From Bacillota bacterium (GTDB lineage: Bacteria > Bacillota > Clostridia > SK-Y3), in contig JAKSBV010000046.1 in NCBI GenBank assembly GCA_022360955.1, positions 1 through 33,605 of the forward strand: a stretch of 33,605 nucleotides of DNA, written 5' to 3'. Every line of letters starts with the position of its first letter. Position 1 is the stretch's first letter. The translations under genes and the position numbers were made by a program. Positions 9,877 to 33,605 of this stretch are shown here, in pieces. The notes beneath the pieces were generated by a model. That model did no database searches. It was not told where the DNA came from and saw only the letters and a program-made list of their open reading frames with translations.

Positions 9877-9932
9877 GTGTTCTGCTTTACATCTGCGGGA
9901 AGGAATAATATAATAGTGAGGAGTTCGGAATA

Positions 9933-13489: not shown

Positions 13490-13515
13490 TATAAAGAGAA
13501 GCTGGAGGAGTAGCT

Positions 13516-14622: not shown

Positions 14623-14666
14623 GAAGTGGGGCGCAGATCCAGCATAAACGCAAGGAGGTATAATAG

Positions 14667-15158: not shown

Positions 15159-15166
15159 GATAGTTG

Positions 15167-15204
15167 AGAAGCGCTGAGGGTTGAAGGTTGAGAGTTGATG
15201 GAAT
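15167..15204 (+). repeat. Seven-base-period array GTTGAGG between the two DUF4330 genes
   Basis: Just after the first stop codon the sequence runs as seven-base units: GCTGAGG, GTTGAAG, GTTGAGA, GTTGATG. The same units form part of the dispersed MITE-like repeats in this window. It fills most of the short gap, yet leaves the next gene's ribosome binding site intact. Confidence 0.7.
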
Positions 15205-15234
15205 GATTTATAGATGACGGGAGGAGCGATAGGG

Positions 15235-15735
15235 ATGTTAATTGACGAAAAAGGCAGGCTTTTTGGCAAGGTGAGTGTAGTGGATATCCTTGTGGTATTG
15301 TTTATCGTTGGAGCCGTTGCCGGCGCGTATTATAAATTCTTTATAGCGGAAAGAGGGGGTGCGGCTGCGCAATTCGATACCCTCCAATATCAGGTGATAA
15401 CAGTGAGCGGTGTACGTCAACCTTCGGTAGATGCGGTTAAAGAAGGTGCGGAGGTTTTTGACGGTGAGACCGGCGGGTATATAGGTAAAGTGATTCAAAA
15501 GGATATATCCCCTGCGAAGAGCTTCATAAAGAAGACAGACGGGACCTATGCAGAAGCCCGGATGCCGGATAAATTTGATGTGATTATAACGGTTGAAGTG
15601 ACAGGGGTGGAGAATGACCATGGTTTTTTTGCCAATGGCAACATAGAAATCAAGAGAGGGTCGGACCTTAAATTTAAAACCCAAATGATCATGCTTGAGA
15701 CAAGGGTAGTAGATGTCAGAAGAATTAAGAATTAA
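15235..15735 (+). CDS. DUF4330 membrane-anchored protein, second of a tandem pair
   Basis: The 166-residue product is a diverged paralogue of the preceding protein. It has the same start (MLIDEKGRLFGKVSVVDILVVL), a single membrane helix at about residues 15-35, and an outer domain with VKEGAEVFDGETGGYIGKVIQK, ARMPDKFDVIITVEVTG and a GNIEIKRGSDLKFKT segment. The frame opens at ATG 15214, but GGGAGGAG at 15219-15226 places the start at ATG 15235, eight bases downstream. The last codons (RRIKN and stop) are made of a GAATTAA-type seven-base repeat that continues past the stop, so the C-terminal tail may have been reshaped by that array. Function unknown; probably pairs with its neighbour. Confidence 0.8.
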   Translation: MLIDEKGRLFGKVSVVDILVVLFIVGAVAGAYYKFFIAERGGAAAQFDTLQYQVITVSGVRQPSVDAVKEGAEVFDGETGGYIGKVIQKDISPAKSFIKKTDGTYAEARMPDKFDVIITVEVTGVENDHGFFANGNIEIKRGSDLKFKTQMIMLETRVVDVRRIKN

Positions 15736-15749
15736 GAATGAAGAATTAG
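15719..15749 (+). repeat. AT-rich seven-base-period array across a stop codon
   Basis: About four units (GAATTAA, GAATTAA, GAATGAA, GAATTAG) overlap the end of the second DUF4330 gene, supplying its final codons and stop codon. It has the same unit length as the GTTGAGG and GACTTCC arrays but a different sequence. Confidence 0.65.
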
Positions 15750-15802
15750 ATTTTGGGGGATTTATATATTATTTTAAAATAAAGAATAGATCATAAGATA
15801 AA

Positions 15803-15836
15803 AAGAAGGACCGCCTGTAGAGAGGCGGTTCTTCTT
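15803..15836. terminator. Bidirectional rho-independent terminator
   Basis: AAGAAGGACCGCCT (15803-15816) pairs with AGGCGGTTCTTCTT (15823-15836) at 13 of 14 positions, the exception being a G-T pair, around a six-base loop. A run of A on the left gives a T-run for the minus strand, and the right side is T-rich. It lies between convergent genes and can serve both the DUF4330 operon and the minus-strand glycosidase gene. Confidence 0.85.
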
Positions 15837-15857
15837 TGATTTTAAAGTTGGTTATCT

Positions 15858-18695
15858 TTACTCAAACAAGTTTTTGATTTCATAACTCATTTCATCGCCG
15901 TTTACCGTTACAAGGATGTACTTGTATCCTTCAACAAGCGCTTCAATATTATCCGCATTTACTGACATGATGCCGGGGATGCTGATATAGCGTACACCTC
16001 TGTCGATATTGTGCTCCGTTTTGTTGTGATGATAGAAAACAAACACATTTTTGCCTTTTTTGGCAAGGCGTTCTGTCAGCATATCTTTAAAAAGCTGTGC
16101 TTCCCGGACATCCGTAAAGCCGTCTTCGCCGGTTAAAGGTTTCGGCAGGAAGATAAACACATTTTTATTGTTGATTTCTTCGATGGCATTTTTAAACCAT
16201 ACCCATTGGTCGGCATTGGTTTTTCTGAAGCCGTCATTATGATTATCCATGTACAGGAAGGTACTTCCTTCATGCTCAAGCATATGATGTCCCGATGTAT
16301 GGAGATACTTTGTATTCAGTCCTTCCAGCGTTTTGGGATCGATATTTCCTACAAAAGCGGCCAAGCTGCCGGATTTGTTAAAGGTATTAATGGCTTTGCG
16401 CATTACAATGTTTTCCAGCAGTGTGCTGCTGTCAATCGTATTTCCGAAAACCGAAAATTGCAGGCTTTGGCCCCCCGAATCCGGCGCAGAGGCCTTGTTT
16501 AACTCATCGGGCAGTCGTATGTCTTCGGGAAGCACAATGTTTTCCACTTTGTTTTCCGGATTGATAAACGTTAAATCATCAAAGTAAATAGCCCCTTTAT
16601 TTTTAACTTCCGGATCAACCTGTACCACATATAGCCTGGTGAAACGTACAGGGCCCTCCACATCCTCCGGTAGGGCAGCTTCAATATACTTCCATCCGTC
16701 CCAATCAATTTTCCTGGCAAAGGTAAGGCGGTGGAACTTATCGTTTTTATCCCGTATTCCCCCTCTGAGCCAGTGCTGCATATATTGGCTTCCATAGACC
16801 CATAGGCCGATTTTAGTGGTGTCGGGACTAATGACGAGTCCGTCACCGGCATACTGAAAATAGGCTGCTCTGGACTCTTCATGGTCGCTCGTAAAATCAA
16901 ACGTAAGCTTTCCGGCATACTCACCGTTTCTTTTTACTTCCGAGGATAGTGTATAATCCCCTTCTACATAAGAAGGATAGGGAAGAAAAGAGCCGTTTAT
17001 TTTTTCAAAATCATCCACTGCGGTTCCGAAGTCGACAGCAACGGAAGCATGGGTATTAACTTGGTCCACGGTAGCCGTTAAAATGTCTACCCCGCCTTTT
17101 AAAGCTTTAATGCTGTTGTCTTCAATGGCAGCAATCCCGTTAGGCATATCCCAGCTGATATCGGATAAGCTGATCGGAGCGGAATATCCCAAGCGATTCT
17201 TGCCGAAAACGGTTAGCTTCACTTTATCCCCGGTCTGCATATCGATACGTTTAGGTTGAATATCGATTGAAGACGGGGAACTGAGTACATCAATGGCATA
17301 AGTGCCCGAAGCGTTCTGATAGGTAGCTTTAATCACACCATGTCCTACAGTGGTGGGATAAAAGGTATTGCCGGCAAATGTTCCTTCGATATCACTGCAT
17401 TGCCATTTTATCCGATTCATATCTACCGGCACCGGATTATAGTTTTGATCATAGGCTTTGACGGTAAAAGCCCTGGAAGTATTCACAAAGACATTTTCAC
17501 TGATGCTTTCAATAACAAGACCGGCAATAGGAGCTTTAGGTGCCGAAGTTTTAATGCCTACGGCATTGGTAACCTTCCTCAGCCAACCGTCCGATGCACT
17601 GTTTACCACCTGAAGCCGATCATCTCCCAGGGTCTTGGAAACCAAAGTTGTAGAGCCGCCGCCGTCGAGGTTAATGGCATTGTGTATGCCCAGTTCTATC
17701 AACAGTGCTGCCATCTCTTCCTGGGTCATCCCTTTACTGGTGAGCTGACGTCCGTCCACAGTAACCAAATAGAGGGTTTTGCCGGCAGCATCGGTACCGA
17801 TTGCACTGCGAGGGTGGCGGCCTTTAATATTGTGGGTAAAAGGGACTTGTTGTCCGTCTTTTACTAACATAGTCCCGCCTCCGACAGCCAGCGCCAGATC
17901 TTTAAAATCCGGCTGGGTGACGATGTCCAATTGCACCGGGTCGCTTACCTGGAAATTATCAATTAAAAAAGGATCATATTCCGGCAGGTTACATATGATG
18001 TATCCGTTTTCCGGAATTTCCACCGGGGGCATTTCACGCCGGATTTCGCGTACGATACCGTTTTCCACGACTACTTCCACCTTATTGTTATCGGAACCCA
18101 GAGAATGGATATTCCAGTTCCGGTCATAGATGACAATGGAATCAAGGGGATCATATTTATTGATATGCTTCGCTGTAGCCGTATTATTGTTAGGTGCCGT
18201 AATCGTAATCTGATACGTCCAAGACCCGAACAATATATTTTTTAGCCGGTCTATGGACATGACGGACATTCCCTCCTGGTGGGCAGGTGTAGATAGTAAT
18301 TTTCCGTCTTTGACCTGGAGGCCTATGGACGAACCCATATCTGAAGTTCCGCGCAGCCTTTGAAAGAAGTCGGCATTGATGGCGGCCACCGCATTATTTT
18401 CTTGTGCCAGGTTCAGTACATTATCCATATGATTGCCGCCTTGGAGGTCGGTTAGTAAGTCCGCACTGAGGTATTGCTCGGTCAGGTCGGCTTTAATGAC
18501 GTTAATATTTAGCCATCCGTCGGTGGTGTAGCGTACGATGTTTTTTCTGGTAACGCCTTTGGTCACAGTCTCTTCGGCGCTTTTTTCATAGATAAGTATT
18601 TCTGCTGCGTTTACAAAAACAGGGGCCAGCATACTGAGGATGAAAAATATAACCAGCAGTATAGAGACCGCTATCGTGATTTTTTTGGTTCTCAT
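15858..18695 (-). CDS. Secreted multidomain phosphodiester glycosidase (NAGPA domain) protein
   Basis: The 945-residue product starts with a signal peptide (MRTKKITIAVSILLVIFF to FVNA, residues 1-30). Residues 80-385 form a NAGPA domain, shown by AAINADFF, RHPRSAIGTDAAGKTLYLVTVDGR and the LDGGGSTTLV motif (343-351). In this family the domain cleaves phosphodiester-linked sugars such as GlcNAc-1-phosphodiesters. Residues 390-560 look like two Ig-like/BIG-type domains (VNTSRAFTVKAYD; MQTGDKVKLTVFGKN). Residues 560-712 look like a carbohydrate-binding-type beta sandwich, opening DDFEKINGSF and ending KGAIYFDDLTF. Residues 745-910 resemble a calcineurin-like phosphoesterase with degraded metal motifs (VFGNT, VGNID, SGHHM, YHHNK). 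ATG 18695 has AAAGGA eight bases upstream; ATG 18725 is further out with no such site. It may trim teichoic-acid-like or lipid-linked glycan phosphodiesters at the surface. Confidence 0.87.
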   Translation of the reverse strand: MRTKKITIAVSILLVIFFILSMLAPVFVNAAEILIYEKSAEETVTKGVTRKNIVRYTTDGWLNINVIKADLTEQYLSADLLTDLQGGNHMDNVLNLAQENNAVAAINADFFQRLRGTSDMGSSIGLQVKDGKLLSTPAHQEGMSVMSIDRLKNILFGSWTYQITITAPNNNTATAKHINKYDPLDSIVIYDRNWNIHSLGSDNNKVEVVVENGIVREIRREMPPVEIPENGYIICNLPEYDPFLIDNFQVSDPVQLDIVTQPDFKDLALAVGGGTMLVKDGQQVPFTHNIKGRHPRSAIGTDAAGKTLYLVTVDGRQLTSKGMTQEEMAALLIELGIHNAINLDGGGSTTLVSKTLGDDRLQVVNSASDGWLRKVTNAVGIKTSAPKAPIAGLVIESISENVFVNTSRAFTVKAYDQNYNPVPVDMNRIKWQCSDIEGTFAGNTFYPTTVGHGVIKATYQNASGTYAIDVLSSPSSIDIQPKRIDMQTGDKVKLTVFGKNRLGYSAPISLSDISWDMPNGIAAIEDNSIKALKGGVDILTATVDQVNTHASVAVDFGTAVDDFEKINGSFLPYPSYVEGDYTLSSEVKRNGEYAGKLTFDFTSDHEESRAAYFQYAGDGLVISPDTTKIGLWVYGSQYMQHWLRGGIRDKNDKFHRLTFARKIDWDGWKYIEAALPEDVEGPVRFTRLYVVQVDPEVKNKGAIYFDDLTFINPENKVENIVLPEDIRLPDELNKASAPDSGGQSLQFSVFGNTIDSSTLLENIVMRKAINTFNKSGSLAAFVGNIDPKTLEGLNTKYLHTSGHHMLEHEGSTFLYMDNHNDGFRKTNADQWVWFKNAIEEINNKNVFIFLPKPLTGEDGFTDVREAQLFKDMLTERLAKKGKNVFVFYHHNKTEHNIDRGVRYISIPGIMSVNADNIEALVEGYKYILVTVNGDEMSYEIKNLFE

Positions 18696-18723
18696 AGGTA
18701 TGGTCCTTTCTTTTGGTAAGTTC

Positions 18724-18776
18724 ATAGTTTGCGGCTAACCGTTCACGGCGGCTGGGAACCGTTAACGTCAAACTAT
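18724..18776 (-). promoter_or_regulatory. Inverted repeat in the leader of the glycosidase gene
   Basis: ATAGTTTG (18724-18731) and CAAACTAT (18769-18776) are a perfect 8-bp inverted repeat enclosing about 37 GC-rich bases that include two AACCGTT words. On the minus strand it lies between the candidate promoter and the ribosome binding site, so it may form a leader hairpin or bind a regulator. Confidence 0.4.
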
Positions 18777-18780
18777 ACTT

Positions 18781-18809
18781 ATTATATAGTATTTCCAATT
18801 CTGTGTATA
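18781..18809 (-). promoter_or_regulatory. Candidate promoter of the glycosidase gene
   Basis: On the minus strand TATACA (at 18809-18804) and TATAAT (at 18786-18781) are separated by 17 bases, a good sigma-A arrangement with a perfect -10 box and four of six -35 matches. The predicted leader is about 80 bases and contains the inverted repeat above. Confidence 0.45.
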
Positions 18810-18904
18810 TAGATCACAAGGGGTTAAATCTTAAAATTCTGTTAATCGGATATTAAGTTTTATTAACAAAGAAAATGACATTATTTCCTACATTAAACTT
18901 TTTC

Positions 18905-18997
18905 ATGACACAGTTCACGACACCTTGCTGCTGATTACTTTCCGTTCCTTGTTTGGTCATATTCCGAGCTCTGACTTCCGATCTCAGGTACATAAAT
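18905..18997 (+). repeat. Fragment (right half) of the MITE-like repeat
   Basis: The words CTTGCTGCTGATTACTTT, GTTCCTTGTTTGGTCATATTCCGA, CTGACTTCCGATCTCAGG and GTACATAA match the right half of copy A, including the exact CTCAGGTACATAA junction. The left half and the terminal inverted repeat are missing. Confidence 0.65.
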
Positions 18998-19080
18998 TTT
19001 TTTAACTATATTAAATGTACCCATATATAAAATAATGAATTGAATTTATCTACCGGTTAGCATATAATTGAGTATGGAAT

Positions 19081-19290
19081 ATAGATAATAAACAGTAAAG
19101 TTGGAAATATAATCGTATTCCAGCAACAGGTATTCCGAATCTGAAAAATAGTTGAAGGCTGAGAGATGAGGGTTGAGAATGAACCGTGGACCGTTTGCGA
19201 GACCTTGTCGCTGATTACTTTGTGTTCCTGTTCGGTTATATTCCGATCTCCGGTTTATATACTTCCACACGATTATATTTCTATCTCTAG
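19081..19290 (+). repeat. MITE-like intergenic repeat, copy B
   Basis: GAAATATAATCG (19104-19115) and CGATTATATTTC (19270-19281) are perfect 12-bp inverted repeats. The left outer end ATAGATAATAAACAGTAAAG matches the outer end of the inverted copy near 28825. The core has the array GTTGAAG, GCTGAGA, GATGAGG, GTTGAGA and the conserved CTGATTACTTTGTGTTCCTG block. No coding capacity. Confidence 0.78.
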
Positions 19291-19347
19291 TAGGGATGAT
19301 CATCCGTAAACGCCGGATAACAAATTTGAAGCGGAGAAGGTGAAAGG

Positions 19348-20346
19348 TTGGAAAGGGATAGAGGACAAAAAAGAGGTAAGCGGTGGCTGCCGATTTGTTT
19401 AATAATGATTGGTACGATTGCTCTTTTTTTGGGTGCGGGTCAAATGACGGTACGACAAGATAAAAAGCAGTTTATACCTATAGAAAAAAATCAACATCCT
19501 CCACAAGCCGGAACGGAAGAAAACACCGGCCCGCAACCTGTTTTAGGTGTGGAAACTTCTATCGTTCATATCGGAGAAGGCGGGGAAAAAGATCATGTTG
19601 ATCAGGGTAAGGCCGGAAGGGAAGCAACGGGTTCTATTGCCGAAAAGATACCGGTATTAATGTACCATCATATGCTAAGAGACGAAGAGAACAAATTATT
19701 CAAAGAGAACGGTGCGGTTATTGGGGTGGACAAATTTGAAGAACAAATGAAGTTTCTCCATGAACAAGGTTTTCATACCATTACCCTTGCCGAGATGGAA
19801 AAGTTTTTGGATAAAGAAATCACGTTACCGGAAAAAAGCCTTTTAATTACTTTTGACGACGGATATTTAAGCAATTACATCTATGCTTATCCCATATTAA
19901 AGAAATACGGATTAAAGGCAGCGGTGTTTATGATAACGGCAGAGGTGGCCGGCACGCCCCAACCCTTTGATCCTGATGCACTTACGAGATTTAGCTGGGA
20001 AGAAATGGAGAAGAGCAAGGACGTATTTGAGTTTGAAAGCCATACCCATGCGATGCACAGCAAAGCGGACGGCGTTGCCTATTTGCTTTGTAAATCGGAT
20101 CAGAAGATTAAAGAAGATTTGGCTGTAAGCAAACAATTGTTAAGTTCAAAGTATTTTGCTTATCCCTATGGCGCATATAATGCAGCAACAATTGATATAT
20201 TAAAAGACCTTGGTTTTAAAATGGCCTTTACAACGAAAGAGGGCAGTGTGGCACAGGATAGCAATCCGTACGAATTGAAGCGGTATGCCATATGGCCTAA
20301 TACAACATTGAAAAAATTTAAGAAAATAGTGGGAGTTGCTAAATAA
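19348..20346 (+). CDS. Membrane-anchored polysaccharide deacetylase (CE4)
   Basis: The 332-residue protein has a short basic N-terminus, one membrane anchor (about residues 12-32) and a low-complexity linker to about residue 95. A CE4/NodB-type catalytic domain follows: IPVLMYHHM opens it, TFDDG is at 168-172, ESHTH at 230-234 holds the metal histidines, and YFAYPYGAYN is at about 269-278. Such enzymes remove N-acetyl groups from surface polysaccharides or peptidoglycan outside the membrane. The start is TTG 19348, preceded by a GAAGGTGAAAGG purine block; no other start fits ahead of the membrane segment. Its stop overlaps the next start (TAATG). Its place upstream of GT4, csaB and tagA suggests that it modifies the same cell-wall polymer. 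Confidence 0.9.
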   Translation: MERDRGQKRGKRWLPICLIMIGTIALFLGAGQMTVRQDKKQFIPIEKNQHPPQAGTEENTGPQPVLGVETSIVHIGEGGEKDHVDQGKAGREATGSIAEKIPVLMYHHMLRDEENKLFKENGAVIGVDKFEEQMKFLHEQGFHTITLAEMEKFLDKEITLPEKSLLITFDDGYLSNYIYAYPILKKYGLKAAVFMITAEVAGTPQPFDPDALTRFSWEEMEKSKDVFEFESHTHAMHSKADGVAYLLCKSDQKIKEDLAVSKQLLSSKYFAYPYGAYNAATIDILKDLGFKMAFTTKEGSVAQDSNPYELKRYAIWPNTTLKKFKKIVGVAK

Positions 20347-21491
20347 TGGAGCAAAAGAATGATAATATCTTGATGACATTAATGGGATTGGAAATAGGGG
20401 GAGCGGAGACACATGTGGTAGAGCTTGCAAAAGAGCTGCAAAAGCAAGGATTGAACATGATCTTGGCTTCCAATGGCGGTGTTTATGAGAAGGAGCTGTC
20501 GGAGTGCGGCATCAAACATTATAAAGTGCCCCTACATAATAAGCAACCCCATAATGTGATAAAATCGTACAAGTCCATAAAGAGAGTGATAAGGGAGGAA
20601 AAAATTGATCTGGTGCACGCCCATGCCCGGATTCCCGCATTTATATGCGGTCTGCTGCACGAAAAAATGAAATTTCCCTTTGTCACGACTGCCCATTGGG
20701 TATTCAATACGGGGTGGGGATTAAAATATATTACCAATTGGGGACAAAAGACCCTTGCGGTGAGTGAAGATATTAAGACATATCTGATGCAGAACTACCA
20801 AGTACGTGAAGAAGATATCAAAGTAACCATCAATGGCATAGATACGGAAAAATTTTCTCCCCATGTTGATTTCAGTGACATCAAGGAGGATTTTAAGCTT
20901 AAGGATAGTGGTTACCGTATCGTAACCATCAGCAGATTGGATAGTGACAGGAGCGATATTGCATTCCAGTTGGTTGAAATCGTGCCTGAGCTGGTCAAAG
21001 AAAAGGCCGATTTGGAGGTTGTCATTGTAGGTGGCGGAAATGTATTCGAACGGTTAAATGAAAAAGTGAACGAAATGAATCAAAAACTGGGACGTCGTGT
21101 CATTGTAATGACCGGTCCGCGAACCGATATTAATAAATTTGTGGCTTCGGCCGATTTGTTTGTCGGTGTCAGCCGGGCTGCGCTGGAAGCAATGGCGGCT
21201 GCAAAACCGGTTATTTTGGCAGGAAACGAAGGTTATATCGGTATTTTTGATGAACAAAAGCTGCCTACTGCCATTAACAGCAATTTTACCTGCCGCGGAT
21301 CACAGCAGTCTGGCCGGGAATTGTTGAAAAGAGATGTACTGCATGTTTTCAACCAAATGGATCAAGATGAGAAAAAGAGGGTAGGAGATTTGGGAAGGCA
21401 AACGATCGAAGAAAGATATTCGGTCAAAAAAATGGCCCGGGATAATATTGAAGTTTATAGGCAATTGCTTTTCGAATCAAAGAACATGTAG
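20346..21491 (+). CDS. Family 4 glycosyltransferase
   Basis: A 381-residue GT-B glycosyltransferase. The N-terminal half has TLMGLEIGGAETHVVELAKEL, KIDLVHAHARIPAFICGLL and VTTAHWVFNTGWGLKYITNWG; the C-terminal half has VTINGIDTEKFSP, RIVTISRLDSDRSDIAFQL and ADLFVGVSRAALEAMAAAKPVILAGNEG, the donor-binding region, where Arg-Ala replaces the more usual Ser-Glu. Donor and acceptor are unknown. The ATG overlaps the deacetylase stop by one base, so the two are translationally coupled. It is followed by a 118-base gap with a repeat-derived hairpin, then csaB. Confidence 0.9.
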   Translation: MEQKNDNILMTLMGLEIGGAETHVVELAKELQKQGLNMILASNGGVYEKELSECGIKHYKVPLHNKQPHNVIKSYKSIKRVIREEKIDLVHAHARIPAFICGLLHEKMKFPFVTTAHWVFNTGWGLKYITNWGQKTLAVSEDIKTYLMQNYQVREEDIKVTINGIDTEKFSPHVDFSDIKEDFKLKDSGYRIVTISRLDSDRSDIAFQLVEIVPELVKEKADLEVVIVGGGNVFERLNEKVNEMNQKLGRRVIVMTGPRTDINKFVASADLFVGVSRAALEAMAAAKPVILAGNEGYIGIFDEQKLPTAINSNFTCRGSQQSGRELLKRDVLHVFNQMDQDEKKRVGDLGRQTIEERYSVKKMARDNIEVYRQLLFESKNM

Positions 21492-21521
21492 TACGTTCGA
21501 TCTATAAAAAAACTAATATTG

Positions 21522-21584
21522 GTTTAGAGTTGAGGGTTCAGGGTTAACGGTTTCGGTTTCTTCTCCGGGCACCCAACTCCAAAC
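21522..21584. repeat. Hairpin built from a GTTGAGG-type array, ahead of csaB
   Basis: GTTTAGAGTTGAGG (21522-21535) pairs with CCCAACTCCAAAC (21572-21584) with one bulge. The left side continues in seven-base units (GTTGAGG, GTTCAGG, GTTAACG, GTTTCGG). It lies inside the deacetylase-tagA unit, 12 bases before the csaB ribosome binding site, and could act on the mRNA. Confidence 0.55.
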
Positions 21585-21609
21585 GCCGAACTACAAAGGA
21601 GCAAAACTT

Positions 21610-22716
21610 ATGTATGACGTAATGGTATCCGGGTATTACGGATTTAAAAATAGTGGTGATGATGCCCTGTTGATGGCAATGATTGATAGTCTTCGCATGT
21701 TTAAAAAGGACATCAAAATACTGGTGTTGTCCATGAACCCCAAAGAGACAAAAAAAATCTACGGTGTGGATGCGATCAACCGATTTAATGTGTTTCAAAT
21801 CCTATGGGCGATGAAACGCTCAAAACTGTTGATAAACGGTGGCGGAAGTCTTATTCAGGATATTACCAGTACCCAATCCTTAATGTATTATCTGAGCATT
21901 ATATGGATGGCCAAAAAGATGGGACTGAAAGTCATGGTATACGCCAACGGCATCGGTCCGATTTATAAAGAGGCGAACCGAAAGCTGACCAAAAGAATTG
22001 TAAATCAGGTAGATATGATTACCTTAAGGGAGGAAGGCTCCAGGCAGGAATTGCGTAGGCTGGACATTCAAAAGCCGCCTATCCTGGTAACGGCAGATCC
22101 TGCATTGACATTGGAAGCTGTAGACGGACATGCGGTTGATGAAGTATTTCAAAAAGAAAAGATAGATTGTTCCGGTCCGTTAATAGGGTTTTCGCTGAGA
22201 GATTGGAAAGGACATGAGAAAAGATACGGCGCAGTCATTGCGCAAATAGCCGACTATATGATTGAAAAATACAATGCAAAGCCGGTGTTTATCCCGATGC
22301 AATACCCTAGAGATCTCCCCATTGCCCAAAAGATTGTTTCCATGATGAAAGGGAAAGGTTATATTATCGAGAATCAATATAGTGTTTTGCAGACTTTGGG
22401 GATCGTGAAAAAAATGGATATGCTTATCGGTATGAGACTGCATACGCTTATCTATGCCGCCAGCCTGGGGGTTCCGTTAATCGGCCTGGTATATGAGCCG
22501 AAAGTGGCAGGCTTTTTAGAATATGTCCGTCAAAAATCGGCGGGGGATGTCACCCAATTGGAAACCGAGAAATTGAGGCAGTTGGTAGATGAGGTCTGGA
22601 ACAAAAGGGACAGCGTGAGAAAAGAGCTGGAACAAGTTACCGCGGATTTAAAGCAAAAAGCGCTGGAAAATGCGAAATTGGCAGTTGAGCTTTTGGACAA
22701 GCAGGTGAAAAGATGA
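21610..22716 (+). CDS. csaB: Polysaccharide pyruvyl transferase
   Basis: The 368-residue product matches CsaB. The N-terminus is DVMVSGYYGFKNSGDDALLMAMIDSLR, followed by LLINGGGSLIQDITSTQSLMYYLS, MVYANGIGPIYKEANRKL, TADPALTLE and the C-terminal KKMDMLIGMRLHTLIYAASLGVPLIGLVYEPKV. The enzyme adds pyruvyl ketals from phosphoenolpyruvate to secondary cell-wall polysaccharide, and SLH-domain proteins bind that pyruvylated polymer. An AAGGAG lies upstream at normal distance, and the stop overlaps the next start as ATGA. Its presence is the main reason to read this cluster as an S-layer anchoring polymer pathway. No SLH-domain protein is encoded in the window. Confidence 0.95.
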   Translation: MYDVMVSGYYGFKNSGDDALLMAMIDSLRMFKKDIKILVLSMNPKETKKIYGVDAINRFNVFQILWAMKRSKLLINGGGSLIQDITSTQSLMYYLSIIWMAKKMGLKVMVYANGIGPIYKEANRKLTKRIVNQVDMITLREEGSRQELRRLDIQKPPILVTADPALTLEAVDGHAVDEVFQKEKIDCSGPLIGFSLRDWKGHEKRYGAVIAQIADYMIEKYNAKPVFIPMQYPRDLPIAQKIVSMMKGKGYIIENQYSVLQTLGIVKKMDMLIGMRLHTLIYAASLGVPLIGLVYEPKVAGFLEYVRQKSAGDVTQLETEKLRQLVDEVWNKRDSVRKELEQVTADLKQKALENAKLAVELLDKQVKR

Positions 22717-23447
22717 GAGAGATGCTGGACGTGCTGGGTGTAAATATTGACATGGTTACGCTTGAACAGGCGGAACAGAAGATTTGGGCGTTTTTAAAGG
22801 GTGAAAAACTGCGTATGGTTTTTACGCCGAACTCCGAAATGATTATGCTTGCACGCAAAGATGGGGCATTGAAGCAGGTCTTGAATGGCGGTGACTTGGT
22901 GATTGCCGAAGGGATTGGTGTGGTTTACGCGTCCGGAATACTGGGAAAGCCTCTTGCAGAGAGGGTGGCAGGTTTTGACACAGCCAAAAGGATGATCACA
23001 AAGCTGCCGGAAAAGGGCTACACGTTGTTTCTGCTGGGAGGAGCGCCCGGGGTTGCCGAAACGGCGAAGGAAAACTTGGAGAAGCAATATCCCGGCATTC
23101 GCATTGCAGGTACACAGGACGGATATTTTGACGAACAAAAGGAGCAGCAAATCATTGCAGACGTGAATCGAATAAAGCCCGATATCCTTTTTGTATGTCT
23201 GGGGATGTCCAAACAGGAAAAATGGATTTACAACAATCGTGATAAGCTGAACGTTAAAGTCTGTATGGGCATTGGTGGCAGTTTGGATGTCTTTGCGGGG
23301 AAAGCCCGGAGAGCACCGGACTTTTATTGTAAATACGGATTGGAATGGTTTTACCGATTAATGAAAGAGCCCTGGCGTTATAAACGCATGATGGCCCTGC
23401 CGAAGTTTGCCTTGACGGTGATTTGGGAGAAGATAAAAGGGGATTAG
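22713..23447 (+). CDS. tagA: WecG/TagA/CpsF family glycosyltransferase
   Basis: The 244-residue enzyme is a full-length GT26 protein. It has VNIDMVTLEQAEQKI, FTPNSEMIMLARKD, LVIAEGIGVVYAS, LFLLGGAPGVAETAKENLE, LFVCLGMSKQEKWIY, GIGGSLDVFAGKARRAP and the C-terminal GLEWFYRLMKEPWRYKRM segment that completes the active site at the membrane. In wall teichoic acid synthesis TagA adds N-acetylmannosamine to undecaprenyl-diphosphate-GlcNAc; related enzymes use other sugars. The acidic residue before the GIGVV motif is Glu here, where many homologues have Asp. Start and csaB stop overlap by four bases. It probably performs an early step on the lipid-linked polymer. Confidence 0.93.
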   Translation: MREMLDVLGVNIDMVTLEQAEQKIWAFLKGEKLRMVFTPNSEMIMLARKDGALKQVLNGGDLVIAEGIGVVYASGILGKPLAERVAGFDTAKRMITKLPEKGYTLFLLGGAPGVAETAKENLEKQYPGIRIAGTQDGYFDEQKEQQIIADVNRIKPDILFVCLGMSKQEKWIYNNRDKLNVKVCMGIGGSLDVFAGKARRAPDFYCKYGLEWFYRLMKEPWRYKRMMALPKFALTVIWEKIKGD

Positions 23448-25742: not shown

Positions 25743-25754
25743 CTGGAGGTTATG

Positions 25755-26774
25755 ATGGCGACAATCAATGACATTGCAAAGGCTGCCGGTGTCTCAAAAG
25801 CTACGGTATCCAATGTATTTACAAAGAAAAAGCCGGTCGGTCAAGAAATAAAGCAAAGGGTGTTGGAAGTTTGTAAAGAGCTGAATTATTACCCTAACAG
25901 GATGGCATCCAGTTTGGTTACCAAAAGAACAAATATCATTGGGCTTTTGCTTGAAAACAGCAAAGAGAAATTTAAGCATTTTTATGGTGATTTAATCAAT
26001 GGCGTTATGACCTCTGCCGCCAAATGCGGCTATAAGGTTTTGTTGGATGCGTGTACGGATGATTATGAGCAGGTGCACACCACTTTGATTGCAAGGTCGG
26101 ACCCCATTGACGGCTCGATTATACATGCCCCGATTATAGAAGACGACAGGATCTTGGAGATGATTGACAAACACATTCCTTTCGTATTGATCGGCAGACC
26201 GTCCGATGAGATTGATGAAGGGATTTTCTACATAGATGTCAACAATGTAGATTTGGCTTGCAAAACGACGACGCACTTGTTGCAGCTGGGACATAGGGAG
26301 ATTGGTTTTTTGAACAGCAGACCGAATATGACGATTACTTTTGATAGATTGAAGGGATATATAGAGGCGTTAGGTGCATACGGAATCCCTTTTAATCCTT
26401 CTCTGGTATACAATAGTGATAACACCGCCGCAACCGGGAAGGTTACCTGCAGCGAGCTGTTGAAAAACAATCCTCAAGTGACGGCGATGATTACCTGTTC
26501 CGACGACGTTGCGGTTGGAGTCTATGATGTGTTGGAAAAGAAGGGGTATCGCATACCCGATGATATTTCGGTCATTGCGTTAGGGGGAGACGACTATAGC
26601 GGCATGCTGGAACCCCGTCTAACAACCGTTTTGATTGATTACAGAAAAATGGGAAAATTAGCTGTTGAACTGCTGTTGAAGAGAATTAAAAAGGAACCTG
26701 TTGATGAAAAAAGGATTATTGTTGAGGCAAAGACCTTTAAAGGGGAATCCTGTACGGTATGTCCGAAGAAGTAA
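25755..26774 (+). CDS. LacI-family transcriptional regulator
   Basis: This 339-residue regulator has an N-terminal helix-turn-helix (ATINDIAKAAGVSKATVSNVF, residues 2-22), the hinge helix region YYPNRMASSLVTKRTNIIGLLL, and a periplasmic-binding-protein-like effector domain with GSIIHAPIIEDDRI, THLLQLGHREIGFLNSRPNMTITFDRLKGYIEAL, MITCSDDVAVGVYDVLEKKGYRIPDDISVIALGGDDY and PRLTTVLIDYRKMGKLAVELLLKRI. It should repress or activate the transporter and mannosidase genes downstream in response to a sugar. ATG 25752 is only two bases from GGAGG, so the next codon, ATG 25755, is the preferred start. Operator-like dyads lie before and after the gene. The effector is unknown, probably a mannoside by context. 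Confidence 0.93.
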   Translation: MATINDIAKAAGVSKATVSNVFTKKKPVGQEIKQRVLEVCKELNYYPNRMASSLVTKRTNIIGLLLENSKEKFKHFYGDLINGVMTSAAKCGYKVLLDACTDDYEQVHTTLIARSDPIDGSIIHAPIIEDDRILEMIDKHIPFVLIGRPSDEIDEGIFYIDVNNVDLACKTTTHLLQLGHREIGFLNSRPNMTITFDRLKGYIEALGAYGIPFNPSLVYNSDNTAATGKVTCSELLKNNPQVTAMITCSDDVAVGVYDVLEKKGYRIPDDISVIALGGDDYSGMLEPRLTTVLIDYRKMGKLAVELLLKRIKKEPVDEKRIIVEAKTFKGESCTVCPKK

Positions 26775-27162
26775 TTTTTGGAACTGTTATTTAACCGGTT
26801 AACCACATGGGAATGCAATATACGGAACCATTCAGTATGAAGTCGGCGCCGTTTTCACCAAAGAAAGCATTTTGCAGGCCGATGGTGTATAGATACCCAA
26901 CTTTAAAGCTGAATTTATATTTACACAAAAAACGCAAAACCATCGTTATTTGTATAAATAGTATGCTTGGGTTGCAGTTTGTTATCTTACCTGATCCGTA
27001 CAAGGGTCCGGCCTGTTAAAGGAATACATACGGAACATAAAAGGGTGTTCCGCAAGAAATATAGGAGGTGATTGCAAAACTATATTTCCCGTATTCGGTT
27101 ATTCTATATTTATCACAACCTTATCGTAAGATTTAAAATTGTCAAAGGAGGAATGGTATCAC
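26775..27162. other. Regulatory gap upstream of the sugar transporter
   Basis: The stretch holds the perfect dyad at 26792, no convincing gene, and at 27063-27070 a strong AGGAGGTG without a recognised gene after it. A TTG at 27072 opens 35 codons that end inside the start of the lipoprotein gene. Short frames on both strands (26807-27019 and 26791-27003) lack binding sites. No convincing -35/-10 pair was found by eye. Confidence 0.55.
26792..26803. promoter_or_regulatory. Perfect LacI-family operator dyad TTAACCGGTTAA
   Basis: A perfect 12-bp palindrome with central CCGG, 17 bases after the regulator stop and ahead of the transporter operon. It matches the two sites upstream of the regulator in layout and is the best candidate for control of the sugar genes. 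Confidence 0.6.
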
Positions 27163-28488
27163 ATGAAAAAGTCTAGAAAACTCTTATCATTAGTGCTGTG
27201 CGTATGCTTGCTTATTACACTCGTAGGGCTGATAGGGTGCGGAAATACGAGCCCGGAAGAGCAGCCCGGACAACAAGACGATCAAAATCAAGGGGAAAAA
27301 TCGAAAGATGATGCAAAAAAACCTGTTGAATTAAAAATCTGGTGGGCGGAAGGCGATCAATTTAAAGCCATATTACTGGACGCAATATTGGCTTATAGGG
27401 ATGTTAATCCCCATGTCAAAATTGTTCCGCAATGGCAGCCGAACTTTGATACATACGATAAGTTAAAGGTTGCAATAGCAGGAAAGACTGCTCCCGACAT
27501 CACAAAACTCGACTCCGTTTTTGCACCGGCCTTGGGATTTAAAGGACAGCTTGTAGACCTTACACAATTCGGAGCAAATGACATTAAGGACAAATTCATT
27601 GAATCGACATGGAAAGCCGGTATGTACAAGGAGCAGGTCTATGCACTGCCCTTTGATGCCAACACCATTGCTTTTTTCTATAACAAAGATATACTCGACA
27701 AAGCCGGAAAAGAGCCTCCTAAGACCTATGAGGAAATCATTGAGGTAGGCAAAGCGATCGAAGCGCTGAATTTACCGGACACCTATGCCTATACGGTGCC
27801 TGTGACTTCCGGCACGAGCGGATGGCTGGCATTCCAGTGGAACTTCTGGCTGTGGAGAAACGGGGGGGAAGTGCTTAACGAAGATTGGACAAAAGCCGTA
27901 TATAACAGCCCGGAAGGTGTAGAAGCACTGCAGAAAGTGGTTGATTTGGTACACAAACATGAAGTGGTGCCGCCGAATGTTTATCTTGAACCGGAATTTT
28001 ATGACGGCAACGTCGGCATGCTGGATATGGGCTGCTGGAATGTGCCTGTCATTACCGGAGAAGATGCTCAGGCAAACTTCGGCATTACGACAATGCCGGC
28101 ACTAAAGGACGGCGTTCCCGGACATTCCGGACTGGGACTTTACAGTATAGGTGTGCTGACAAGCTGTAAGGCACAACAAGAAGCCTATGAATTTGTAAAA
28201 TTCCTTGCAACCAATAAGGAATATCAGGTCACTTACTCGAAGAAGACGAATCTTATGCCGAGTCTGGTTGAGGCCTACGAGGATGAATATTTCAAAACCC
28301 CGGCGTGGGAAGCATTCTTGGCCCAGCTCAAGATTGCAAAGGCAAGACCCGGTACCCCGGCGTGGCCTGAAATTGCGGAGCATATGAATATAGCGATCCA
28401 GGAAGCCTTAACAGGCAAGAAGACCGCTCAAGAAGCGCTTGACGGTGCGGTTGCAAAGAGTAACGAAGCACTTGCAAAAGTGAAATAA
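27163..28488 (+). CDS. Sugar ABC transporter substrate-binding lipoprotein
   Basis: The 441-residue protein has a lipoprotein signal (MKKSRKLLSLVLCVCLLITL, lipobox L-I-G-C with Cys at 26) and a Gly/Gln/Asp-rich linker, then a family 1 solute-binding domain. Typical parts are LKIWWAEGDQFKAILLDAILAYRD, KLKVAIAGKTAPDITKLDSVFAPAL, YALPFDANTIAFFYNKDILDKAGKEPPKTYEE, WNFWLWRNGGEVLN and MLDMGCWNVPVI. It binds an oligosaccharide or glycoside outside the cell. The frame extends to TTG 27139, but AAAGGAGG (27144-27151) and the lipoprotein signal fix ATG 27163. A hairpin and a repeat separate it from the permease genes, which may hold permease levels below that of the binding protein. The mannosidase gene in the same unit suggests a mannose-containing ligand. 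Confidence 0.93.
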   Translation: MKKSRKLLSLVLCVCLLITLVGLIGCGNTSPEEQPGQQDDQNQGEKSKDDAKKPVELKIWWAEGDQFKAILLDAILAYRDVNPHVKIVPQWQPNFDTYDKLKVAIAGKTAPDITKLDSVFAPALGFKGQLVDLTQFGANDIKDKFIESTWKAGMYKEQVYALPFDANTIAFFYNKDILDKAGKEPPKTYEEIIEVGKAIEALNLPDTYAYTVPVTSGTSGWLAFQWNFWLWRNGGEVLNEDWTKAVYNSPEGVEALQKVVDLVHKHEVVPPNVYLEPEFYDGNVGMLDMGCWNVPVITGEDAQANFGITTMPALKDGVPGHSGLGLYSIGVLTSCKAQQEAYEFVKFLATNKEYQVTYSKKTNLMPSLVEAYEDEYFKTPAWEAFLAQLKIAKARPGTPAWPEIAEHMNIAIQEALTGKKTAQEALDGAVAKSNEALAKVK

Positions 28489-28825: not shown

Positions 28826-28896
28826 AGCACAACGTGTTAATTAACATATGGATGCGGGTCCTCGTATCCATATAACCGATGGAATGGGGTGAGCAA

Positions 28897-29829
28897 ATGA
28901 AATCGGAGAAAAAAGGGTTTATGGCGGCATTCAAGAAAAAGTACAAAAATGAGATTGTAGCTTATTCCCTATTGGCATATCCGTTACTACATTGGGGCGT
29001 ATTTTTTGTAATTCAATTTTTTAGAGCCTTTGGCTTAAGTTTTACGGATTGGGACATTTTTTCTGAAGCTAATTTTGTAGGGTTCAGCAATTATACTACG
29101 ATTTTGTTTAAAGATGAAGTTTTTAGGATAGCACTGATTAATACGGTTTTGTGGGCATTGGCAATGGCCGTCGGACCATTGGTGATAGGGTTTTTAGTGG
29201 CATTGATGGTCAATCATATTTCGAAAGGGAGCGTATTCTTTAGAACGCTTTTGTACTGGCCGGCCTTGATATCAAAGGTTGTTTTTACATCCATTCAGGA
29301 AAGGATTTTTTCCTCCAGCCCCTATGGATTGATCAATAGGCTTCTGGGTTTATTCGGTGTAGACGCCGTTGCCTGGTTTGATAATCCTGATATCGCACTG
29401 CCTTCTCTTATGCTATGGCCGTTTTTGATGGGTTTTTCGTTCCCGATGCTGTTTTTCCTGGCAGGGCTAAAACAAATTCCAAAAACCTTTTATGAAGCGG
29501 CAGAAGTGGACGGTGCCAAAAAAAGTACCATTTTATTTAAAATTACATTACCGTTGATGAAACCCATCATTTTCCTTAATTTAATACTGGGCATGACCGG
29601 TACGTTTTCATTGACCGAAGGTTTTAGGGCTTTGGCGCCTATGCAGCTCATCACAAAAGGTGGGCCGATTCATGCGACGTATTCCGTGGTGTATAAAATT
29701 TATACCGACGGATTTGACAAGTATCAGATGGGATACGCTTCTGCTATGTCCTTTATCCTTTTTGCGATTATTCTGATTATGACCATCATCCAGTTTAAAA
29801 TTCAGGGTGAACAGGTTTCGTATGAGTAA
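28897..29829 (+). CDS. Sugar ABC transporter permease, UgpA/MalF type
   Basis: The 310-residue inner-membrane protein has six predicted membrane helices, with YSLLAYPLLHWGVFFVIQFF as the first. The coupling loop to the ATPase is YEAAEVDGAKKSTILFKITLPLMKPII, the EAA motif of binding-protein-dependent sugar importers. The open frame reaches back to ATG 28879, but the GGGGTGAG block sits just before ATG 28897, which is preferred. It partners with the next permease and the preceding lipoprotein. No ATPase gene is present in the window; such CUT1 importers often share a multi-sugar ATPase (MsmX-like) encoded elsewhere. Confidence 0.93.
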   Translation: MKSEKKGFMAAFKKKYKNEIVAYSLLAYPLLHWGVFFVIQFFRAFGLSFTDWDIFSEANFVGFSNYTTILFKDEVFRIALINTVLWALAMAVGPLVIGFLVALMVNHISKGSVFFRTLLYWPALISKVVFTSIQERIFSSSPYGLINRLLGLFGVDAVAWFDNPDIALPSLMLWPFLMGFSFPMLFFLAGLKQIPKTFYEAAEVDGAKKSTILFKITLPLMKPIIFLNLILGMTGTFSLTEGFRALAPMQLITKGGPIHATYSVVYKIYTDGFDKYQMGYASAMSFILFAIILIMTIIQFKIQGEQVSYE

Positions 29830-29859
29830 AGATAACGCACATTTTACAATGTGTTATCT
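29830..29859. repeat. Short hairpin resembling fused repeat ends
   Basis: AGATAACGCACATT (29830-29843) pairs with AATGTGTTATCT (29848-29859) with one bulged G. Each arm resembles the outer end of the MITE-like repeat (compare GGTAACACATTG at 25304 and CAGTGTGCTATCTTTA at 28811). It starts just after the first permease stop and could be a collapsed copy consisting only of the two ends. Confidence 0.5.
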
Positions 29860-29874
29860 ATAAAGGAGGCCATA

Positions 29875-30714
29875 ATGAAAAGATCCAAACCAACGGCACT
29901 CAATATTTGTATATATACTTTACTAATCATATTAGCATTATTGCAAATATTCCCTTTTTATTTTACCATTATTCGTTCCTTTCAGCCTGAATCTTTTTTT
30001 GAAAGGGCTACAGAGTTAAAATTCCTGCCTGAAAGCTGGAATTTTGAAAATTATCCGGAAGCATGGCGTCGCGCCAGGCTGGGAAGAGGGTATTTGAACA
30101 GCCTGTTTTACGTATCGGTGTTCACCTTTATCAGTGCAATGATTGCTATGATGGTGGGATATGTGCTGGCCAAAAAGGAGTTTAGGGGGAAAAACTTTGT
30201 TTTTCTGATGTTTTTATCGACCTTGATGGTCCCGTACGAGACATTGCTCATTCCTAATTTTCTAATGGCAAGAGACTTATACCTGACGGATAAGCTTGCA
30301 GGGCTGATTATCCCCGGGCTGGTCAGTATCATGGGCATATTTATTGCCAAACAATTTATGGAGACGATCCCCGACTCAATCGTAGAATCTTCCGTATTAG
30401 ACGGTGCGGGAGAATTCCAAATATTTTATAAAATCATTATGCCCATGTCCAAGCCTGCACTGGCCACCTATTGTATACTTACTTTCACAGACAAATGGAA
30501 TGAATATATCTGGCCGCTGATCATATTGAATGAACCGTCGAAATTTCCTGTTCAACTGAGTTTGCTGTATTTTGTGGACAGACATGCAACCGGTGATTAT
30601 TTGGCGACCCTGCAGCAGGCTGCTATTATCTCTACCCTTTTGCCTGTAGTAATCATCTATTTCATATTCCAGAAAAAATTTGTAGAGGGCATTTCTATTA
30701 CCGGGCTGAAATAA
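29875..30714 (+). CDS. Sugar ABC transporter permease, UgpE/MalG type
   Basis: The 279-residue protein has about six membrane helices and the EAA-type coupling loop ESSVLDGAGEFQIFYKIIMPMSKPALATY. Other family traits are FPFYFTIIRSFQP near the N-terminus, LMVPYETLLIPNFLMARDL, and TDKWNEYIWPLIIL, the usual W-N-E-Y/F-x-W-P-L block. It is the second half of the CUT1 sugar permease. A longer frame starts at GTG 29851 within the hairpin, but AAAGGAGG (29862-29869) is five bases before ATG 29875, which is chosen. The mannosidase gene follows by 56 bases, with its own strong AGGAGG. Confidence 0.93.
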   Translation: MKRSKPTALNICIYTLLIILALLQIFPFYFTIIRSFQPESFFERATELKFLPESWNFENYPEAWRRARLGRGYLNSLFYVSVFTFISAMIAMMVGYVLAKKEFRGKNFVFLMFLSTLMVPYETLLIPNFLMARDLYLTDKLAGLIIPGLVSIMGIFIAKQFMETIPDSIVESSVLDGAGEFQIFYKIIMPMSKPALATYCILTFTDKWNEYIWPLIILNEPSKFPVQLSLLYFVDRHATGDYLATLQQAAIISTLLPVVIIYFIFQKKFVEGISITGLK

Positions 30715-30770
30715 TGGGCGGCGATCTACAGCCCGGCGTATCTATTTCTATTTTAACAGGAGGAAGGCTT

Positions 30771-33605
30771 ATGTCAAAAAAATATCTAATGCATGTAATA
30801 TCCGGTACACACTGGGACCGGGAATGGAGACATACGGCGGAACAATCGAAGTCCCGTCTCGTTGAATTGATGGATACAATCATCGATTTGTTGGAAACCA
30901 AGACGGATTATAAATGCTTTTGTGTGGACGGGGGTACCATTGTACTGGAAGACTATTTAACCATACGTCCGGAGAATAAAGAACGAATCCAACAATTAAT
31001 AGCATCGGGCAAAATGTCGATCGTAAACTGGTACACGCTGCCGGAGACCTTTACCGTGGCCCCGGAATCACTGATCAGAAATTTGCTGCTGGGCACCGGA
31101 ATGGCCAAAGCGTTTGGCGGAGGGATGGATTCAGGATATACGGCAACGTCTTACGGACAGACCTCGCAGCTGCCGCAGATTTATAAGGGATTCGGCATCA
31201 ATACGGCAATATTCTACCGGGGCACCAACAAACATGTTTTGCCGCCGTTTTTTAAGTGGGAAGGGCTGGACGGTTCGCAGCTGTACACCCTTAAAACCTT
31301 TGACGAGGTGACAAGAACGAATTGGTTCTTTTATGTCCATCAGCCGCTGGTACTTGGAAAACCGTGCAGGGACCTTACATATACCTATGATAGAAACCAT
31401 TGTCCCGTTCATATGTGCGACGAAGGCTTGTATGAAAGAGGATTTGTACTTTTGAAGGAAGAGGTTCAATTTAATCAGGACCCGGAGGCTCTTGAAAAAA
31501 CAATGGATGCAATCCTGAATCAGGCAAGGCCTTATGCGGTAGGAAAGCATTTGCTGGCGATGAATATGGAGGACAATGATCAGCCCTTTGCACTTTTGCC
31601 GGAAATGATAGAAAAATTGAACCGCATATCACCGGATGTGGAATTGATCCAAAATTCCCTGGATGACTATATGGACGCATTGATAGAGGAAATGAAGGGT
31701 AAAGAAATGCACGTACATAGGGGAGAACTCAGGTATCCTGCCGTAGAGTACGGATTTAACGCATTACTGGGAGCGACCCATGCTTCCCGAACAAAGCTGA
31801 AGGTATTGAATGATGCCGTGGAAACGCATTTGATCTATCAGGCCGAACCCTTTGCAGCCATTGCTTCCCTCTATGGAAAAGAATATCCTAAAATCACCTT
31901 GGAGAGAGCGTGGGCGGCCCTTCTGAAAAACCATGCCCATGATACCATCTGTGGTGCCGCCGTAGATCGGGCCCACGAAGATATGCTGTACAATTTTTCA
32001 ATCGCAAAAACGGTTGTGGAAGAAGTCACCGCCCGGAGTATTATTGCATTGGTGAGTAATATCGATACGGCTAAATCTTTTTGCAAGGATACGGACCATA
32101 CGATTACTTTATTCAATATGTCCGATCAGCCTCGTAAGGAGGTGGTGCCTCTGACCGTCGATCTGCCCCAGGCAGCAAATGCGGAAGTGATGGATATTGG
32201 CGTGGAAGGCATTCCTGACTGCGAATATTTTGATATCGTTGATGAAAAAGGCCGTAAAATGGAATATGAAGTGCTGAGCTGCGAAAAAATCAAAATCGGT
32301 GTAGAAAGAGAGCTGGATACAAAGGCAATCAAATTCCCGGCAAACAGAAGGCGTATCCTGCTCAATGCGGAAATGCCTCAGATGGGCTACACAACCTATG
32401 CTCTGCGATTCCGTGGGCCAAACTATGTGAAACATCCGGAAACGGGTCCGAACCGGCCCCTCATTGCAAGGGAAAACGGAGTGCTGGAAAATGAATATCT
32501 AAAGGTCACTATCCACCCGAACGGGACCTTTTCATTATGCCACAAGGAAACGGGCAGATGGATGGAAAACCTGCACTACTTCACCGACAGCGGTGAAACG
32601 GGCAGCGCACATATCAGCAATCAACCCCAGCGCAATCCGGTTTTCACCAGCCTTGGCAGTGGGGCCAATATCACAATGCTTGAATCCAACTTGCTCCGGG
32701 GAAGGTATCGGATTGAATTAACAATGAAAGTGCCTGCGGCTGCAACGGTGGATGTACGGGACCGTTTGCGTGAAATGACGGAAATCCCGATTACCTGCTG
32801 GTTGACGTTGGAAAAGGGTGCAAAAGTGCTTAAAATTAAGACCCGTTTGCGTAACGAGGCCCGGGACCATAAATTATGTGTCAACCTCCCCAGCGGCGTA
32901 AAAACAGACTACGCAACGGTGGAAAGTGCTTTTGCCGTTGAAAAGAGAAAGATTCGCTGGACGCAGAGCGGAGACAATTTTGAGCCGTTTTTCCCCTTTC
33001 AACCCATGCAGAACTTTGTTGACGTCAACGATGGTCAAGTGGGGCTTGCGGTATTGAACAAGGGACTGCGTGAATATGAAGTAAAAGATGACGCGGACAG
33101 AACCATTGCCCTTACATTATTGAGGACACATCGGGCCTATATGACGGCCAATACGGATATGACGCCGGAAGAATTTGATCAATATACCGGACTCCATTCC
33201 TTTGGCGATTTGGAATATCACTATGCCCTTTATCCACATACCGGAGATTGGGATGAGGGAGAGGTCCTGGGGCAGGCGTATCAATATAAAGTGGATATCA
33301 AAGCAATCCAAGGGGTTCCGATGGAAGGCAACCTGTCAAGTACGAACAGCTTCTTTAATATTGAGCCTGTAGGCAATGTGATGATTTCGGCATTAAAAGC
33401 TTCAGAAGACGGAAGCGGTATCATCATGCGGGTATGGAATACCACATCGGAAAAGCAAAAGGTGAAAATAACAACTATGCTGCCCGTCAGAGCGGTCAAA
33501 AGAGTGCGTCTGGACGAAACACCGCTTGGGGATATCGGGATGTATGGTGACACCATTGTATTCGATCTGGGGCCCCATAAGATTGAAACGTTGCTGCTGG
33601 TGCAG
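30771..33605 (+). CDS. GH38-type alpha-mannosidase-like protein (3' end cut by window)
   Basis: The frame runs 945 codons from ATG 30771 (AGGAGG seven bases upstream) to the window end without a stop. The last residues, PHKIETLLLVQ, resemble a natural GH38 C-terminus, so little is missing. GH38 enzymes cleave alpha-mannosides with a zinc ion. Present are THWDREW (His14 and Asp16, zinc ligands), SQLPQIYKGFGI, the MNMEDNDQP block with the probable acid Asp, and KNHAHDTICG (His388/His390, zinc ligand region). The nucleophile block normally reads like GYxxDSFGHxxQ, but here it is GYTATSYGQTSQ, with Thr126 at the Asp position. No signal peptide is visible, so it should act in the cytoplasm on imported glycans. 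Activity or mechanism is therefore uncertain. Confidence 0.85.
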   Translation, partial: MSKKYLMHVISGTHWDREWRHTAEQSKSRLVELMDTIIDLLETKTDYKCFCVDGGTIVLEDYLTIRPENKERIQQLIASGKMSIVNWYTLPETFTVAPESLIRNLLLGTGMAKAFGGGMDSGYTATSYGQTSQLPQIYKGFGINTAIFYRGTNKHVLPPFFKWEGLDGSQLYTLKTFDEVTRTNWFFYVHQPLVLGKPCRDLTYTYDRNHCPVHMCDEGLYERGFVLLKEEVQFNQDPEALEKTMDAILNQARPYAVGKHLLAMNMEDNDQPFALLPEMIEKLNRISPDVELIQNSLDDYMDALIEEMKGKEMHVHRGELRYPAVEYGFNALLGATHASRTKLKVLNDAVETHLIYQAEPFAAIASLYGKEYPKITLERAWAALLKNHAHDTICGAAVDRAHEDMLYNFSIAKTVVEEVTARSIIALVSNIDTAKSFCKDTDHTITLFNMSDQPRKEVVPLTVDLPQAANAEVMDIGVEGIPDCEYFDIVDEKGRKMEYEVLSCEKIKIGVERELDTKAIKFPANRRRILLNAEMPQMGYTTYALRFRGPNYVKHPETGPNRPLIARENGVLENEYLKVTIHPNGTFSLCHKETGRWMENLHYFTDSGETGSAHISNQPQRNPVFTSLGSGANITMLESNLLRGRYRIELTMKVPAAATVDVRDRLREMTEIPITCWLTLEKGAKVLKIKTRLRNEARDHKLCVNLPSGVKTDYATVESAFAVEKRKIRWTQSGDNFEPFFPFQPMQNFVDVNDGQVGLAVLNKGLREYEVKDDADRTIALTLLRTHRAYMTANTDMTPEEFDQYTGLHSFGDLEYHYALYPHTGDWDEGEVLGQAYQYKVDIKAIQGVPMEGNLSSTNSFFNIEPVGNVMISALKASEDGSGIIMRVWNTTSEKQKVKITTMLPVRAVKRVRLDETPLGDIGMYGDTIVFDLGPHKIETLLLVQ

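Follow-up and report, generated by a model that had tools for sequence, protein, structure and literature searches.

The GH38-like protein encoded at the end of the window (the whole 33,605-nt stretch of DNA analysed here) is probably a cytoplasmic inverting glycoside phosphorylase, derived from a retaining GH38 alpha-mannosidase and acting with a HAD protein that would convert its product to mannose 6-phosphate. The nucleophilic Asp of the family has been removed, the acid and zinc-binding residues kept and cationic residues gained: together, these are the requirements of an inverting phosphorylase. The co-gained basic residues, with a conserved HAD partner, point to phosphorolysis.

The GH38-like gene and its setting

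A LacI-type regulator gene and then a three-gene sugar importer lie upstream of the GH38-like gene, all on the same strand. The initial annotation had the protein encoded with its own sugar importer, and Pfam agrees (a binding protein and two permeases):

25752..26774, + strand: LacI-type regulator (Pfam)
27139..28488, + strand: sugar-binding protein of the importer (Pfam SBP_bac_8, SBP_bac_1)
28879..29829, + strand: importer permease 1 (Pfam BPD_transp_1)
29851..30714, + strand: importer permease 2 (Pfam BPD_transp_1)
30758..30763, + strand: AGGAGG, likely ribosome-binding site of the GH38-like gene (direct sequence reading)
30771..33605, + strand: GH38-like gene, 945 codons, with the stop codon alone missing (Pfam domains; stop on contig C44)

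Four Pfam domains are over cut-off in the GH38-like gene (Glyco_hydro_38N, Alpha-mann_mid, Glyco_hydro_38C and Glyco_hydro38C2). The absence of internal stops and strong conservation rule out a decayed pseudogene. The protein misses the NCBIfam equivalog cut-off for mannosylglycerate hydrolase PRK09819 (425 bits vs 1138). No PTS protein was found among the 20 window proteins scanned.

The window takes up all of contig C306 in its genome, which breaks off one codon too early to include the stop of the gene. Another contig of the same genome, C44, encodes the last 145 residues of the GH38-like protein at 97% identity, followed by the stop and then by a gene for a HAD protein of 334 residues. From this overlap of the gene end we infer that C44 is the true continuation of the window, the conserved HAD partner thus lying past the end of the contig. 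The gene end is duplicated in the assembly (window 33171-33605 and L028 5085-5519, 97% identity); such a duplication at a contig break suggests a strain mixture. Elsewhere in the window, positions 6157-23447 hold cell-surface polysaccharide genes (glycosyltransferases, MurJ, O-antigen ligase type, polysaccharide pyruvyl transferase and WecG/TagA type), among them a gene on the minus strand for a large NAGPA-domain protein.

Loss of the nucleophile in one GH38 clade

According to its description (PMC2815779), D125 of SpGH38 is the nucleophile and also binds zinc, together with H13, D15 and H351; D232 is the acid/base, and R149 and Y192 act on D125. The corresponding motif of the window protein is GYTATSYGQTSQLPQI, encoded at 31134-31181. 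When the protein is aligned by phmmer with solved bacterial GH38s, no gaps occur over residues 5-151 (3lvt/5kbp) or 6-152 (2wyh), and the window Thr falls on the Asp of their G-Y-F-P-D-T-F-G. The residues concerned are listed here; numbers follow P0001, without the start Met, Thr125 there being residue 126 of the gene.

30810..30818, + strand: H13-W-D15, two zinc ligands, retained (36/36 Asp-less proteins)
30828..30830, + strand: Arg19, directly after HWDREW (Arg or Lys in 36/36 Asp-less proteins)
31146..31148, + strand: codon of Thr125 (126 with Met), the nucleophile position (sequence and alignment)
31218..31220, + strand: Arg149, counterpart of SpGH38 R149 (in Asp-less proteins Arg 30/36, Lys 6/36)
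31314..31322, + strand: Arg181-Thr-Asn183, inserted segment (R181 and N183 in 36/36 Asp-less proteins, a gap in 19/19 Asp-bearing rows)
31572..31574, + strand: Asp267, counterpart of the SpGH38 acid/base D232 (36/36 Asp-less proteins)
31938..31940, + strand: His389, C-terminal zinc ligand, SpGH38 H351 (36/36 Asp-less proteins)

Compared with a retaining GH38 alpha-mannosidase, then, the protein has the domains and fold, the three zinc ligands and the acid Asp, and lacks the nucleophile Asp; compared with an inverting glycoside phosphorylase, it has no enzymic nucleophile and keeps the general acid.

A scan of genome contigs found 20 loci encoding proteins with 58-65% identity to the window protein, mostly in Clostridia, but also in two Planctomycetes-type bins and in bins named Mollicutes and Actinobacteria. 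Thr stands at the nucleophile position in all 19 full-length sequences (the window and 18 relatives), which rules out a sequencing error or lone mutation as its source, and in the fragment L022 as well. Wider searches brought in 17 further Asp-less proteins (8 with Phe, 8 with Ser and 1 with Ala), and 19 Asp-bearing proteins covering the same residues. Residue counts are based on the 55 of 86 aligned rows that cover residues 15, 125 and 389, after dropping L074 and L076 as repeats of L030 and L093. Over the resulting 36 Asp-less proteins the nucleophile site is thus Thr, Phe, Ser or Ala (Phe or Ala in nine), while H13, D15, D267 and H389 are invariant. One sugar-stacking residue of SpGH38, Trp18, is replaced by Phe or His in 12 of the 36, which counts against the phosphorylase reading.

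In a tree from a short search, a single branch (SH-aLRT 91) separates the 26 Asp-less rows from the others. The alignment behind this tree excluded position 19 and residues 119-132 and 165-258, and the Thr clade was represented in it by 9 of its 19 rows. By these sequences the Asp-less GH38-like proteins are one clade; as the profile used to collect them was built on the Thr clade (with a strict class search cut-off, E 1e-110), Asp-less proteins far from that profile may have been missed. On all these points the initial annotation stands: it had placed Thr126 at the catalytic Asp position, noted that HWD, the probable acid Asp and the C-terminal zinc His are kept, and proposed a family tree as a check on whether the Thr form is a clade.

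Loss of the Asp coincides with the gain of basic residues. Residue 19 is Arg or Lys throughout the Asp-less proteins, vs Tyr or His in 17 of 17 Asp-bearing GH38s of HWD (bacterial) type; of the two remaining, non-HWD Asp-bearing rows, one has Lys there. Between residues 160 and 258, Asp-less proteins have a stretch of 97-100 residues and Asp-bearing ones a stretch of 44-63. Two alignments paired N183-W-F with the canonical N-W-Y in different ways, so we assign only Arg181 to the insert. Gln129 is likewise invariant in Asp-less proteins, as against 3 of 17 Asp-bearing ones. The insert also contains an acid, Asp216, in 33 of 36 Asp-less proteins (N or S in the other three); because it could act on water as a base, it counts against phosphorolysis.

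An AlphaFold model of the window protein has the GH38 fold (mean pLDDT 78.8; Z 37.9 against 3lvt, 33.8 against 2wyh), and the best matches by both Foldseek and VIA-align are GH38s. Confidence in the model is low over residues 15-24 and 178-180; the clade-specific R/K19 and R181 are in or near these stretches, and so are not placed relative to residue 125. From their distribution, both are candidate phosphate-binding residues.

The HAD partner and other neighbouring genes

A HAD gene adjoins the GH38-like gene in 18 of the 20 Thr-clade loci, and in the window's own genome. In the other two, L014 is on a contig that stops 283 bases past the GH38-like gene, and L021 matches the second half of the gene and is in the same bin as L022, whose HAD gene is on the upstream side. 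The wider class sample, outside the window's genome, has 10 of 17 Asp-less genes abutting a HAD gene. For three more (two in G495, one in G598) it is about 2-15 kb off on the same contig, and for another three (in G559, G015 and the second of G598) it is on another contig. The last, a Phe-type gene in G466 (L115, G466:C1), has a different neighbourhood and no HAD was found in its genome, which counts against the phosphorylase reading.

Of 391 genomes, 15 have the GH38-like gene and 17 the HAD gene, and 14 have both (Fisher p about 6e-22; one HAD match, in G012, is an 80-residue fragment, without which p = 1e-22). In a 398-genome phylum sample, no HAD was found at E 1e-30 outside the window's genome; nine other genomes there have strong GH38 matches, all of Asp type, and none of these has the HAD at that threshold. 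No relatives of the HAD were found in viral contigs.

The HAD protein is over the Pfam cut-offs for HAD_2 and Hydrolase, and its motifs D87-L-D89, K252-P-H-P and E280-D-S are invariant in 18 of 18 sequences. Beta-phosphoglucomutases are among its PDB sequence matches, and its fold matches include these, CbbY and a mannitol-1-phosphate phosphatase domain. Two observations count against a mutase and with it against the phosphorylase reading: the protein misses the NCBIfam bPGM equivalog cut-off (24-28 bits vs 189.4), and it is similar to phosphatases too. It could act as a phosphatase, which we rank as less likely than a mutase. Its residues 1-80 (L006 4114-4353) form a conserved N-terminal stretch, predicted mostly beta and with no Pfam match.

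A mannose-6-phosphate isomerase gene is within 1.5 kb of 4 of 21 HAD genes (vs 0.04 expected), although three of these four come from one genome (G495) and are not independent. Among the 20 Thr-clade loci, four carry such a gene. The operon in G053 (L071 3-18710, G053:C9) has the order GH88-GH94-HAD-GH38-like, the last being of Phe type; G742 (L108, G742:C11) has the identical order, also with a Phe-type GH38-like gene, and with proteins similar by eye. In both, a GH5 gene comes next after the GH38-like gene, and in G053 there is a PL8 gene on the same contig. The presence of a GH94 phosphorylase in this operon was counted in favour of phosphorolysis. The xanthan-use gene set of R.UCG13, as given in a review (PMC10881899), consists of GH88, GH94, GH38-A/B, GH5 and PL8, and the gene order in G053 and G742 resembles that locus. 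The G053 HAD shares 65% identity with a Thr-clade HAD, vs 32% for their GH38-like proteins; the systems therefore probably form a common product from different substrates, to judge by these identities.

A GxGYxYP-type protein, a putative glycoside hydrolase, is encoded just upstream of the GH38-like gene in L015, L016, L017, L018 and L020, and also occurs at L007, L009 and L012 (confirmed by Pfam in L016, by clustering in the others). It may act ahead of the Thr-clade protein. An FAD-oxidoreductase gene (PF12831; L072 5941-7077) is near the Ala-type GH38-like gene, and L113 and L122 have genes whose starts look similar to it by eye.

Proposed mechanism, alternatives and known systems

In the proposed scheme, the importer would take up an alpha-mannoside. 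Zinc on H13, D15 and H389 would hold mannose O2 and O3, and D267 would donate a proton to the leaving group. Phosphate, occupying the place of the former Asp carboxylate and bound by residue 19, Arg149 and Arg181, would make a direct attack on the anomeric carbon to form beta-mannose 1-phosphate. The HAD protein, as a beta-phosphomannomutase, would convert this to mannose 6-phosphate, which mannose-6-phosphate isomerase would pass into glycolysis. Of this scheme, we infer that phosphate is the nucleophile, that the sugar is mannose, which anomer is formed and that the HAD is a mutase. The route from mannoside through beta-mannose 1-phosphate to mannose 6-phosphate is suggested by the importer, the lack of a PTS protein in the scan, the beta-phosphoglucomutase-like partner and the isomerase genes near some HADs. 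There is a mirror case in GH130, where carboxylates replacing basic phosphate-binding residues turn phosphorylases into hydrolases, as described in PMC4599007.

An inverting zinc hydrolase is an unlikely alternative, in which zinc or Asp216 would activate water, the basic residues would bind a charged part of the substrate (e.g., a uronate) and the HAD would dephosphorylate something else. Asp216 is common enough in the clade to suit this, and uronate-type genes adjoin the Ala-type GH38-like gene. The review (PMC10881899) also speaks of hydrolysis, which counts against phosphorolysis: it states that R.UCG13 GH88 and GH38 enzymes, the latter possible members of the Asp-less clade, hydrolyse a xanthan tetramer to cellobiose. 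However, Asp216 is not invariant, and the constant beta-phosphoglucomutase-like neighbour and adjacent isomerase genes would be left unexplained. Oxidation-elimination on 3-keto sugars, with a zinc-stabilised enediolate and no need of a nucleophile, would fit the FAD-oxidoreductase gene beside the Ala-type gene and the similar starts in L113 and L122. The recurrent Thr-clade neighbours included no gene recognised as such, though, and neither the HAD nor the gained Arg residues would be accounted for, making this route quite improbable.

The initial annotation had offered a changed mechanism, a different substrate or a non-catalytic role. Its changed mechanism is likely, the Asp being absent and the other catalytic residues retained, and its interpretation holds for the Asp loss, the kept residues and the clade; the non-catalytic role is unlikely. 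A sugar binder or sensor would be compatible with a lost nucleophile, but the invariance of the acid and the three zinc ligands in 36 of 36 proteins, along with strong conservation over a long sequence, makes it very improbable. Least probable is a retaining mannosidase with another nucleophile (Thr126, Asp120 or Glu266). Thr could in principle coordinate zinc, but the Phe or Ala at that site in 9 of 36 proteins excludes a clade-wide covalent mechanism through it. Glu at position 266 is restricted to the 19 Thr-clade rows. Asp120 (position 119 of P0001), which the initial annotation had named as a stand-in that would overturn its case, is rejected: a single one of the 36 Asp-less proteins has Asp there, and Lys predominates.

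If phosphorolysis is correct, a retaining hydrolase family has become an inverting phosphorylase by losing its nucleophile, and so provides a natural experiment on the change from hydrolase to phosphorylase. GH38 would then join the 11 CAZy families with phosphorylases counted in a review whose available part does not mention it (PMC8950772). Among the matches listed in the open-access literature, none, judged by title and the start of the abstract, describes a GH38 phosphorylase or a beta-phosphomannomutase. The enzymes would offer a route to beta-mannose 1-phosphate, and to alpha-mannosides by reverse phosphorolysis, and would imply that gut and other anaerobes with genes annotated as mannosidases save energy in using mannosides. 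We lean slightly towards a new alpha-mannoside phosphorylase family inside GH38, with a dedicated beta-phosphomannomutase HAD, to which some annotated alpha-mannosidases of gut Clostridia, perhaps including xanthan-gum ones, belong.

Of the known systems, the closest in structure are the SpGH38 and E. faecalis GH38 alpha-mannosidases (PDB 2wyh/2wyi and 3lvt/5kbp), which have in common with the window protein the fold, the three zinc ligands, the acid Asp and Arg149; the window protein differs in having Thr for Asp125, Arg for Tyr19 and an extra insert with Arg181. The pairing of a GH65 phosphorylase with beta-phosphoglucomutase, in which inverting phosphorolysis of an alpha-glycoside is followed by a HAD mutase, is a two-step scheme like that proposed here; it differs in fold and in using glucose rather than mannose, and the HAD here has its extra N-terminal stretch. 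GH130 phosphorylases act on beta-mannosides. They belong to a different family, and have their likeness to the window protein in what is proposed for it, inverting mannoside phosphorolysis with basic phosphate-binding residues (PMC4599007). The R.UCG13 xanthan locus matches G053 contig C9 in its gene types; its GH38s are named alpha-mannosidases in the review, and are likened to the G053 genes by gene type.
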